IMG/VR virus record: IMGVR_UViG_3300028384_000457 | Coordinates: 1-26,422 of that record | DNA from: a virus | Reading direction: 5' to 3' (one strand) | DNA length: 26,422 nt | Shown: positions 4,829 to 24,561 of the stretch, piece by piece | Layout: each line of letters begins with the position of its first letter | How positions within the stretch are numbered: position 1 is the stretch's first letter | Made by a program: the position numbers and the translations under genes | The notes under the pieces: model-generated | The model's input: only the letters and a program-made list of their open reading frames with translations | Databases searched by the model: none | Told to the model about the DNA's origin: nothing

Positions 4829-5227
4829 ATGGTAACATTTAACACATATACCCCATATTCTCTTGGATTGGATGAAACATTCAGCAGACTTGAAGCTCTT
4901 GCAGGAAGTGGATCAAATTACCCACCATACAATGTTGTTGATGGAGGTGATGGTAGAACACTACTGGAAGTCGCTCTTGCTGGATTTTCAGGAGAACATA
5001 TTGAAGTCACAACAGAACGAAATGTTCTAACAGTTTCTGCTAAAAAAGCACCAGAAGAGAAAGAACGTAACTATTCTCATAAAGGAATTTCATATAGAAC
5101 ATTTGCTCGTAACTGGCAGATGGCAGATGATGTAGAAGTTGAAGAAGTAAAATTTATTGATGGTCTTCTTACAATCACTCTTGTCAAACAGTTACCCGAA
5201 AAACAGAAAAGAAAAATTTGGTTCTAA
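4829..5227 (+). CDS. hsp20: Small heat shock protein, Hsp20/alpha-crystallin family
   Basis: The protein has 132 aa. Hsp20 proteins hold unfolding proteins in solution without ATP. The alpha-crystallin core is visible from about residue 32: YNVVDGGDGRTLLEVALAGF, then NVLTVSAKK, YRTFARNWQMADDVEVEEVK and DGLLTITLVKQLP. The C terminus QKRKIWF lacks a clear I-x-I oligomerisation motif. ATG 4829 has AAAGGAC just upstream. It stands alone between the structured regA-hsp20 gap and a terminator, so it is probably a single transcription unit. Hsp20 is common in T4-like cyanophages and is thought to help phage assembly or protect host proteins. Confidence 0.95.
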   Translation: MVTFNTYTPYSLGLDETFSRLEALAGSGSNYPPYNVVDGGDGRTLLEVALAGFSGEHIEVTTERNVLTVSAKKAPEEKERNYSHKGISYRTFARNWQMADDVEVEEVKFIDGLLTITLVKQLPEKQKRKIWF

Positions 5228-5294: not shown

Positions 5295-5648
5295 ATGGCA
5301 GTATCAATCGTCACACTAAAGACGGGTGATCGCATCATTACTGAGTTGAAAGAAATCTTCGATGGAGAAGGTGAAGACAAACGTGGTGTTTGCCTTTTCA
5401 TGGAAGATCCTTATATTCTCAACCTTGATAGCGGAACACCACAATACTTGACTGAAGCACATGGTATGGAATACCAAGTTCGCTTTAGTAAATGGAATCC
5501 TTATTCTTCCGATTGGCAGTTTAAGATTCCATATGATTGTGTAATGACAATCAGCAATCCAGAACCAGGACTAGAAAATGCCTGGAAACAAAAATTAGCA
5601 CAACGTGAGGAATTAGAAAATGACGGAACAAGCACCACTGAAGACTAA
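5295..5648 (+). CDS. Unknown protein, first of three related tandem proteins
   Basis: The protein has 117 aa from ATG 5295 (MAVSIVTLKTGDRIITELKE); an in-frame TTG at 5277 would add six residues. It begins with two predicted beta strands, then GVCLFMEDPYILNLD, WNPYSSDWQFKIPYDCVMTI, SNPEPGLENAWKQKL and an acidic tail. The same pattern (IVTL, PY-L, W-P-S, then a strand and NP--L) recurs in the next two proteins, so I take the three as diverged duplicates. The small all-beta layout with a final helix is compatible with an Sm-like or other small-barrel fold; that is inference. The gene lies downstream of a candidate promoter and overlaps the next gene by 29 bases. Confidence 0.85.
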   Translation: MAVSIVTLKTGDRIITELKEIFDGEGEDKRGVCLFMEDPYILNLDSGTPQYLTEAHGMEYQVRFSKWNPYSSDWQFKIPYDCVMTISNPEPGLENAWKQKLAQREELENDGTSTTED

Positions 5649-6015
5649 TCATAATATTCGCATTGTAACTCTAACCACTGCAGAGAGAGTTCTCTGTATG
5701 TTTGGAGAGGTTCGTAATGAAGATGACGATAATAAAGTAGTCGGTTATCGATTGCTTTATCCTTATACTCTTTCTCTTGGGAAAGTCAATGAAGATGGAA
5801 CTATTCCAATTTCTTATGAGCGTTGGTGTCCATTCTCTCCTGTAGAAGAACATCGCTTGAGTGGTGAGCATATTATTAGTGTTGTTTTTCCTGATAATAA
5901 TATTCTTGAGAATTTTGCAAACAGACTGAAAGAAATTGGTTTGACAGATGAAAATATTTTCTTCCCCGAGGTAACTGATGGAGATAACAGCGAACCTGCT
6001 GAAACTGCAGAATGA
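5620..6015 (+). CDS. Unknown protein, second of three related tandem proteins
   Basis: The protein has 131 aa. It opens with HNIRIVTLTTAERVLCMFGE, then has GYRLLYPYTLSLG, SYERWCPFSPVEEHRLSGEH, IISVVFPDNNILENFANRL and a long acidic tail (EVTDGDNSEPAETAE). These blocks line up with the preceding 117-aa protein in the same order and spacing. The ATG at 5620 overlaps the upstream gene. No Cys-rich, membrane or catalytic motif is visible. It is probably co-translated with its neighbours and DNA polymerase. Confidence 0.85.
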   Translation: MTEQAPLKTNHNIRIVTLTTAERVLCMFGEVRNEDDDNKVVGYRLLYPYTLSLGKVNEDGTIPISYERWCPFSPVEEHRLSGEHIISVVFPDNNILENFANRLKEIGLTDENIFFPEVTDGDNSEPAETAE

Positions 6016-6235
6016 GTGGATCATTGCTCAAGTAGAACCATCTGAAGGGGACACCTTGCCAGGTGACCCTGACGTGTGGATGATTGAACCATACGTGCTA
6101 GACTCTGAAGGTCAGATCACACCATGGGCACCATATGCTGATGAGCGTGAATTTAATGTCAGGTCTTCTGACTTAACTGTTGTGACTAATCCAAGCAAAT
6201 CTTTGCTTGCTCGTTATATTGAATGTCTTGAATGA
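5978..6235 (+). CDS. Unknown protein, third of three related tandem proteins
   Basis: The protein has 85 aa and is the shortest and most diverged of the set. NEWIIAQVEPSEGDTLPGDP replaces the first strands. VWMIEPYVLDSEG, ITPWAPYADEREFNVRSSDL, TVVTNPSKSL and LARYIECLE then match the PY-L, W-P, strand and NP--L blocks of the two upstream proteins. ATG 5978 follows CGAGGT at suitable distance and overlaps the previous gene by 38 bases. The stop overlaps the DNA polymerase start as ATGA, so its translation is likely tied to that of gp43. Confidence 0.8.
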   Translation: MEITANLLKLQNEWIIAQVEPSEGDTLPGDPDVWMIEPYVLDSEGQITPWAPYADEREFNVRSSDLTVVTNPSKSLLARYIECLE

Positions 6236-8721
6236 AGTTTTACACTAGTGTTGAGCAAGCAGGCAACCGTCTGCTTGTACGTGGTTATGAGAATGGCAAT
6301 CGTTACAGCGTGAGGGTTCCTTTTAACCCTACGCTGTATTTGCCTACTAAGAATTATTCTGAGTGGAGAACACTGGAAGGTGATTGTGTAGAACCTCATC
6401 AGTTCGGATCTATTACCGAAGCAAGAGACTTTGTAAAACAATACAAAGAAGTAGATGACTTTGAGATTTATGGTAACTCTCGTTTCTTATATCAATATAT
6501 CGCAGAGCAGCATCCAGAAGAAGAACTAAAGTTTGACAGCAGTAAGATTCGTGTCTTTACTATTGACATTGAGACTGCTGCTGAGAATGGTTTTCCTGAC
6601 ATTGAAAGTGCTGATCAGGAGATTCTTGCTATCAGTATCAAGGATAGTTTCTCTGGTCGTATTACGGTTTTTGGAGCTAGAGCATTTGATAATAAAGATC
6701 CTATGGTGGATTACATGCATTTTCGCTCAGAAGAGAGCATGATGGGTGCATTCCTTGATTTCTGGCAAGAGAACTATCCTGATGTTGTCACGGGATGGAA
6801 CTGTCAGTTGTTCGATATGCCATACATTCATAATCGTATCAATCGTATTATGGGTGAGAAGTTTGTGAAACTTCTTTCTCCTTGGAAACTTGTGTCTCAG
6901 CGTGAGATCTTTATTAAAGGTCGTAAGAATTTTTCTATCGACATGCTTGGTATCTCTACGCTTGACTATCTGGAACTGTATAAGAAATTTACTTATACAA
7001 ACCAAGAGTCATACCGTCTGGATCATATCTGTTCTGTAGAACTGAATGAGAAGAAACTAGATCACTCTGAGTTTGATACGTTCAAAGAGTTCTATGAGAA
7101 CGACTGGCAGAAGTTCATCGAGTACAACATCCATGACGTTCGTCTGGTGGATAAGCTTGATGACAAGATGAAACTGATTGAACTGGCATACACCATGGCA
7201 TATGACGCTAAGGTGAATTATGAAGATGTGTTTAGTCAGGTCCGTATGTGGGATAACTACATTTATTGCGAACTACTAAAGCGTAAGATTGCAATCCCTC
7301 CCAAGAAAGAGGCGACTAAGACTGAGAAGTATGCAGGTGCTTATGTCAAGGAACCAAAACCAGGATTTTATGATTGGGTGGTTAGTTTTGACCTTAACAG
7401 TCTGTATCCTCACCTTATTATGCAGTACAACATCTCTCCAGAGACACTCCAAGATACCAGACATCCATCAGTCACCGTTGATAAGATACTTCAGAAGCAA
7501 GTAGAGATTGACGGTGAGTATGCTGTGTGTGCTAACGGAGCACAGTATTGTAAGGATAAGCATGGGTTTCTTCCTCAGATGATGAAGAAGATGTATGACA
7601 GCAGAGTTATTTTCAAGAAGAAGATGATTGCTGCTAAAAAAGAATATGAGAAGACACCTACTGTTGAACTCATGAAAGAGATTGCTCGCTGTAATAACAT
7701 TCAGATGGCAAAGAAGATCTCTTTGAACTCTGCTTATGGTGCCATTGGTAATGAACACTTTCGTTACTATCGTCTTGCTAATGCTGAAGCAATCACTTTG
7801 TCTGGACAAGTGTCAATCCGTTGGATTGAGAACAAAATGAACGGATACCTAAATACTCTTTTGCAAACCGAGGATATAGATTATGTCATCGCTAGCGATA
7901 CCGACTCAATCTATCTTAATCTTGGACCTCTTGTTAGTAAATTTTTTGGTGCTAAGTCTAGCGACAAAGCAGCAGTTGTGGGGATACTTGACAAGATCTG
8001 CCAAGAGAAATTGGAACCTTTTATTGAACGTTCATATCAAGAACTTGCGAATTACGTTTCGGCGTATGACCAAAAGATGAGTATGAAGCGTGAGAATATC
8101 GCTGATCGTGGTATTTGGACTGCGAAGAAGCGTTACATTCTTAACGTATGGGACAGTGAAGGTGTTAGATATAAGGAACCAAAAATGAAGATTATGGGTT
8201 TGGAGACTGCCCGTTCTTCTACTCCAGCGTATTTTAGAGACAAGTTATATGCAGCGTTTAAGATTATTATCGGCAAATCAAATGATGAACTTATCACTTT
8301 CATCGATGATGTGCGAGCAGAAACGAGACTGCGACCTTATGAGGAAGTTGCTTTCCCTAGAGGAGTCAATAATCTCTCAAAATATCGTCACCCAACTGAG
8401 ATCTACCAAAAAGGAACACCCATCCATGTGCGAGGTGCTCTGCTCTACAACCACTATGTCAAAAAGCACAAAGTAGAAAACAAACATCAACTTATTCAAG
8501 AGGGTGAGAAGATTAAGTTCATGTATCTTAAAACACCAAATCCAATTCATGAGAATTGTATTAGTTTTTTTGGTGAGTTGCCTCATGAGTTTGGACTTGA
8601 GAAGTATGTTGATTATCAAACTCAATTTGAAAAGTCATTCTTGGAACCTCTCAAGAATGTGCTAGAATGTGTGGGATGGACCCATGAGAAAAAAATTTCA
8701 CTTAGCAGTTTCTTTGAATAG
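6232..8721 (+). CDS. 43: Family B DNA polymerase gp43
   Basis: The protein has 829 aa (T4 898) in a single uninterrupted frame. It is the replicative polymerase with 3'-5' proofreading. Exonuclease motifs: FTIDIET (D112, E114, the same numbers as in T4), [13 protein letters not shown] (D195) and [11 protein letters not shown] (D302). Polymerase motifs: [12 protein letters not shown] (D387); [25 protein letters not shown] near residue 555. The C terminus [10 protein letters not shown] fits the clamp-binding peptide expected at the end of gp43. The ATG overlaps the upstream stop (ATGA). No intron, intein or split is seen. Confidence 0.99.
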
Positions 8722-24126: not shown

Positions 24127-24561
24127 GTGGAAGAATATGAAAATCCCTGGAGATATAATGGCAGCGTCTTTGACGGGAGTCTTATTGGGGATAACTACGG
24201 TTTTGTTTATCTCATTGCCAATCTCAAGAACCAACGACAATACGTTGGGAGAAAGTATTTTTGGCAAAAAAGAAAACCCAAAGGAGCTAAACGTAGAGTT
24301 ACATCTGAAAGTAATTGGAGATCCTACTATGGATCCTGTCCAGAACTCAAAGAAGATATCCAACTCTACGGTAAAGAAAACTTCAGTCGCACCATCCTCT
24401 CCCTCCACACCACACCAGGAAGGACTAACTACGAAGAGACCCGACAGCTCTTTCTTCACGACGTTCTGACGAGGAGCTTGACAGATGGCACTCCTGCGTA
24501 TTATAATTCTAACATCCTCGGTCGTTATTACAGGAAGGATTATTTCCCCTATGATTCTTGA
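24127..24561 (+). CDS. GIY-YIG homing-endonuclease-like protein
   Basis: The protein has 144 aa. DNYGFVYLIANLKNQRQYVG matches the GIY-YIG core (GFVY and YVG), followed by GRKYFWQKRKPKGAKRR. SNWRSYYGSCPELKEDIQLY, GKENFSRTILSLHTTPGRTN and YEETRQLF provide the conserved Asn/Glu helix region. This type of freestanding nuclease occurs in many large phages. No ATG exists in frame between the last stop and the motif, so GTG 24127 is the likely start; the ribosome site (AAAGG) is rather far. An out-of-frame ATG 24119 is better placed, but its product has no recognisable content. The gene overlaps the lysozyme-like gene by 11 bases. Confidence 0.82.
   Translation: MEEYENPWRYNGSVFDGSLIGDNYGFVYLIANLKNQRQYVGRKYFWQKRKPKGAKRRVTSESNWRSYYGSCPELKEDIQLYGKENFSRTILSLHTTPGRTNYEETRQLFLHDVLTRSLTDGTPAYYNSNILGRYYRKDYFPYDS

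Follow-up and report, generated by a model that had tools for sequence, protein, structure and literature searches.

Cyanomyoviruses are among the most abundant viruses of the ocean, and no known function was found for the small genes that lie beside their polymerase gene and are described here. The closest described relative is PDB entry 3BY7, an ocean-metagenome protein whose PDB title calls it structurally similar to Sm/LSm RNA-binding proteins; in their 2009 report on it, Das and co-workers are said to have proposed that it is of cyanophage origin, forms a pentamer and has a nucleic-acid role. The same protein forms the LSm part of the TIP60 nanocage, a part described as pentameric (PMC10374429), and a 2008 metagenome paper had already pointed to it as homologous to a gene carried by phage-like marine contigs (PMC2530865). 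In cyanophage genomes, the described counterparts are the gene clusters T4-GC 176 (phrog_431) and T4-GC 177/417 (phrog_483). The window analysed here is the whole of a 26,422-base virus record from a T4-like marine cyanophage, with Synechococcus phages Sf-CH1b, S-WAM2 and S-RSM4 as its nearest isolates (82-83% DNA identity across the polymerase region). It carries both types in the same gene order, with two GC176-type copies (proteins A and B) followed by one GC177/417-type copy (protein C), whereas most genomes have a single GC176-type copy.

Gene layout, family membership and predicted fold

An earlier note on this DNA had described three tandem, diverged copies of one unknown small domain at 5295-6235, directly before the DNA polymerase gene, and three + strand reading frames are indeed found there. 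Downstream of their conserved neighbour, the small heat-shock protein gene hsp20 (4829..5227, + strand), lie the genes for protein A (5295..5648, 117 aa), orthologous to T4-GC 176, protein B (5620..6015, 131 aa), a lineage-specific and fast-evolving second GC176-type paralogue with an acidic tail, and protein C (5978..6235, 85 aa), orthologous to T4-GC 177/417; regA is two genes upstream of the three. The overlaps described in the note were also recovered from the reading-frame coordinates, with 29 nt shared between the end of A and the start of B (5620..5648), 38 nt between the end of B and the start of C (5978..6015), and 4 nt, as ATGA, between the stop of C and the start of gene 43 (6232..6235), the DNA polymerase gene that follows immediately on the same strand (6232..8721). 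Of about 241 loci, 191 have a last copy before gene 43 that ends in an ATGA of this kind. The acidic tail of B falls within the second overlap and was not used to argue for a function, since its final 13 codons are shared with C. Elsewhere in the window, reading frames at 2141-2719 and 24127-24561 resemble, by eye, HNH and GIY-YIG endonucleases, and are possible homing endonucleases.

Pfam family PF20198 (DUF6561) matched protein C above its cut-off (E 6.9e-16) and protein A beneath it (E 1.6e-4; 22.1 bits against a cut-off of 27), with no Pfam match for protein B, and a search of NCBIfam gave no believable match. Single-sequence phmmer searches of the PDB returned weak matches to 3BY7 for A (E 0.16) and C (E 0.012) and none to it for B, and profiles were therefore needed. 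With profiles, 3BY7 was matched across the whole domain both by the A/B family (E 4e-11) and by the C family, whose profile includes some A/B-type rows (E 1.6e-10); the only other strong PDB profile matches were TIP60 designs, which contain 3BY7.

AlphaFold2 models of B (pLDDT 87.5) and C (pLDDT 89.6) each predict a small barrel with a helix after it at the C-terminus, and both superpose on 3by7, at Z 13.1 (2.2 A over 86 residues) for B and Z 13.5 (1.2 A over 76 residues) for C. The next fold matches of both models are Sm/LSm chains at Z of about 6-7. Together with the profile matches to 3BY7, these fold matches strongly support the Sm-like small barrel that the note had raised as one possibility. 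Its proposal that the first strand is lost in the third protein does not hold for the model of C, in which strand 1 is present at residues 6-10, the sequence motif alone having drifted. The Sm-like fold is thus predicted from models for B and C, and by homology to B for A. On these profiles and predicted folds, A, B and C are paralogues with an Sm-like barrel and belong to the marine-phage family represented by PF20198/DUF6561 and 3BY7, and the domain is not the unknown one that it had been taken for: the family and its solved structure are already known, and the three proteins add new members. They match 3BY7 at full length in profiles and share its fold, with a small barrel and C-terminal helix in both, but they differ from it in identity (about 15-22%), in sub-family (3BY7 belongs to phrog_527), in being more acidic, and in lying in tandem, two or three copies together.

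Canonical Sm/LSm proteins (archaeal SmAP, eukaryotic Sm and Lsm) have the barrel in common with the B and C models, at a moderate Z backed by the stronger match to 3by7. In the canonical proteins, however, the helix comes before the first strand, whereas the models of B and C begin with strand 1, have no N-terminal helix, and place a helix after the last strand. Unlike canonical Sm/LSm proteins, A, B and C are also strongly acidic (pI 4.0-4.5, with domain charge averaging about -6 to -8 across the family), and the Pfam matches listed include none to LSM (PF01423), either for the three proteins at E-values as high as 10 or for 77 A/B-type members at E-values as high as 0.01. With neither an LSM match listed nor an N-terminal helix in the models, the three proteins are kept apart from canonical Sm/LSm. 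Likewise, no Pfam Hfq match is listed for A, B or C, and Hfq is absent among the fold matches listed for the B and C models, a listing still compatible with likeness to Hfq.

Gene order, copy number and further family members

In the annotated cyanophages that were examined, hsp20 is followed by the family copies and then by gene 43, a conserved order in which other small genes sometimes intervene, and the synteny of regA, hsp20, copies and gene 43 extends across the Kyanoviridae. Two copies occupy the slot before gene 43 in S-PM2, Sf-FP1, P-SSM2, S-RIM44, S-BM3, S-CREM1, S-RIM8, S-CAM8, ACG-2014d, Bellamy, S-CAM1, S-CAM9, DSL-LC02 and Syn33, and three in S-RSM4, Sf-CH1b and P-HM1. The fetched loci with both hsp20 and polymerase, a sample in which relatives of the queries are over-represented, comprise 109 with three copies and 59 with two. 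Across cyanomyoviruses two copies are usual, with three in some lineages, and the idea that all three are always present in these phages is refuted. Since most genomes have only two copies at this slot, a three-part ring could not be universal.

Several members are obscured by annotation. The S-RSM4 orthologue of C (SRSM4_073, L002:4804-4944) is cut short in its annotation, to 141 bases, yet the sequence retains the whole 85-aa frame; shortened versions of this kind probably make up phrog_15830 (41 aa). In S-CREM1, an Sm-like copy upstream of gene 43 (L096:1769-2167) is unannotated, and the record gives a partly overlapping 'Arc repressor' instead. Two contigs carry an extra domain-like match between regA and hsp20 (L010:1489-1818, and L016).

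At least one further family member was found away from the gene 43 slot in all 18 of the complete phage genomes searched, with family totals of 3-5 per complete cyanophage genome as lower bounds. In S-PM2, Syn33 and S-RSM4, a further copy lies between uvsW and the late sigma gene 55 (gp55). T4-GC 139 genes at this site were located at L247:1714-2133, L250:1465-1863 and L248:1396-1794. T4-GC 139 (phrog_471) is thus one more paralogue with this domain that these genomes carry, distinguished from A, B and C by a longer C-terminal part and by its site; its name in S-PM2 and Syn33, 'methylamine utilization', looks like a misannotation. Syn33 additionally has a phrog_527 member between gp44 and gp62. 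Given the slots at gene 43, uvsW-gp55 and gp44-gp62, most of the members with a determined position are found among genes for replication, recombination and late transcription, and several 'hypothetical' or misnamed genes are brought into one family through Sm-like paralogues at gene 43, gp55 and the clamp-loader genes.

Among isolates, Pelagibacter phage Mosig has the gene most closely related to 3BY7 itself (L245:7992-8306; 44% by tblastn, phmmer E 2e-24), with a single gene lying between it and gene 43. This relationship suggests a pelagiphage-like virus, and not a cyanophage, as the source of the 3BY7 protein.

Possible roles beside the polymerase gene

The fixed place beside replication genes, together with repeated duplication, suggests a putative role there. 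The best explanation of the data as a whole, to which a probability of roughly 0.55 is given, is that A, B and C are Sm-like family copies whose expression is coupled and which form small rings that serve the replication module. The nested, overlapping start and stop junctions and the ATGA coupling to gene 43 support this reading, and so do the controlled homology, the profile and fold matches to 3BY7, the conserved gene order, the purifying selection, and the siting of the Mosig relative near gene 43 and of paralogues at uvsW-gp55 and gp44-gp62. The three proteins would be made in coupled amounts with the polymerase. They may then assemble into small rings like the pentameric 3BY7 protein, given the pentameric state described for the LSm part of TIP60 (PMC10374429), and in three-copy lineages the rings would probably be mixed, since several paralogues would be made together. 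More tentatively, such a ring could resemble Hfq/LSm and either bind nucleic acids or serve as an adaptor within the module for early replication and expression, where it would handle phage mRNA or single strands or dock partners at the replisome. Counting against this explanation are the strong acidity seen family-wide, which is unusual for a strong nucleic-acid binder, the lack of any listed Pfam LSM match, and the presence of only two copies at this slot in most genomes. The acidity and the missing LSM match call for caution over the hetero-oligomeric ring and the RNA binding that had been put forward from the sequence, and they weigh against a standard Sm RNA-binder, for which reason a protein-binding adaptor is ranked level with an RNA-acting protein among the alternatives.

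The first of these alternatives, a possible one with less than even odds, is that the Sm-like rings bind proteins and not RNA, for instance as accessory subunits of the replisome or of late transcription that dock on gp43, gp45 or gp55. It is favoured by the acidity of A, B and C, by their lack of a listed LSM match, and by the examined slots in replication, recombination or late-transcription modules (gene 43, gp44-gp62, uvsW-gp55). However, docking on gp43, gp45 or gp55 is putative, the next matches in fold below 3BY7 are Sm/LSm proteins that bind RNA, and acidic subunits also occur in the RNA-binding Sm rings of eukaryotes. A fifth copy in S-RSM4 (L249:2128-2463, phrog_431 type) is moreover sited beside a 2OG-Fe(II) oxygenase gene near the tail-fibre genes instead.

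The second, equally tentative, is that the proteins act as a phage Hfq-like chaperone which works with the neighbouring RegA to control how early mRNAs, that of gene 43 included, are translated. The Sm-like fold and the position of regA two genes upstream favour such a regulator, as does the precedent of T4, in which RegA and gp43 regulate the same set of genes post-transcriptionally (PMC3014915), but the acidity of the proteins speaks against it. A further point in its favour is that fourfold-site diversity is low in C, at 0.24 where A and B have 0.44-0.46, and also low, at 0.16, in codons 1-25 of gene 43, as a cis-acting RNA element might give; such an element is possible across the low-diversity stretch at 5978-6310, although about 2.5% of gene 43 windows show diversity as low as that of C. 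Within C, a conserved 8-bp hairpin (6158-6177) pairs in 95% of cells, compared with 66% with random synonymous codons. When this hairpin and a second one in gene 43 were set against shuffles, pair counts were 95.0% compared with 94.8% (reached in 100 of 500 shuffles) and covariation was likewise not beyond shuffles (reached in 40 of 500), a result that counts against RNA regulation here. RNAalifold favours other pairs than those of the candidate hairpins, and no RNA element is claimed. The single Rfam match was below threshold and was to an implausible microRNA.

A more far-reaching and rather doubtful proposal is that mixed Sm-like rings are assembled in T4-like marine phages from a set of paralogues that the phages encode themselves, placed beside clamp-loader, polymerase and late-sigma genes and made in step with the polymerase, as a phage-specific equivalent of the eukaryotic heteromeric LSm ring that would link replication to gene expression. 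Whether such phages encode Sm-like rings, perhaps mixed ones, and whether these act on RNA or on the replisome, has become a testable question.

Duplication, selection and common ancestry

In a maximum-likelihood tree of 75 domains, many forks are poorly resolved because the alignment comprises 83 columns, but the split between C-type and A/B-type domains has support of 99/100. Protein B forms its own clade (100/99) beside a clade of A and the S-PM2-type single GC176 copy, with joint support of 97/84. For the domains aligned, the tree shows an ancient C-type versus A/B-type split and a later duplication that produced B, while the extra copies of P-HM1 and of a further locus (L107) are placed elsewhere in the tree, which suggests that they arose by separate duplications. 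Outside the overlaps, dN/dS is mostly 0.07-0.3 and at most 0.47, indicating purifying selection on A, B and C. Protein B is the fastest of the three in amino-acid change (55-69% identity to relatives), and its close orthologues (at least 52% identity) are limited to 24 phage records, as might be expected of a decaying or dispensable extra copy with no function of its own. This is nevertheless improbable, as B has an intact frame, forms one well-supported clade and has a dN/dS of 0.12-0.47 outside the overlaps.

Direct comparison of profiles of about 60 orthologues each gave HMM-HMM E-values of 7.3e-17 for A-B, 7.3e-6 for B-C and 3.4e-5 for A-C, against a best value of 0.004 among controls comprising reversed profiles and 30 column shuffles per pair, and iterated searches seeded with A, B or C ended on near-identical sets of 626-627 reading frames (243/244 loci). 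On this evidence the three are homologous copies of one domain with a common ancestry, and their duplication and divergence, as first proposed from the sequence, is borne out by the profile comparisons, the tree and the purifying selection on all three. That they are unrelated small proteins alike by chance, a view for which their pairwise identity of only about 20% could be cited, is refuted by these controlled comparisons, the convergence of the searches and the common match to 3BY7, and has next to no probability. Against the phrog families, A and B both match phrog_431 (E 5e-37 and 6e-32) and C matches phrog_483 (E 5e-22), with weak cross-matches from A to the family of C and from C to the family of A.
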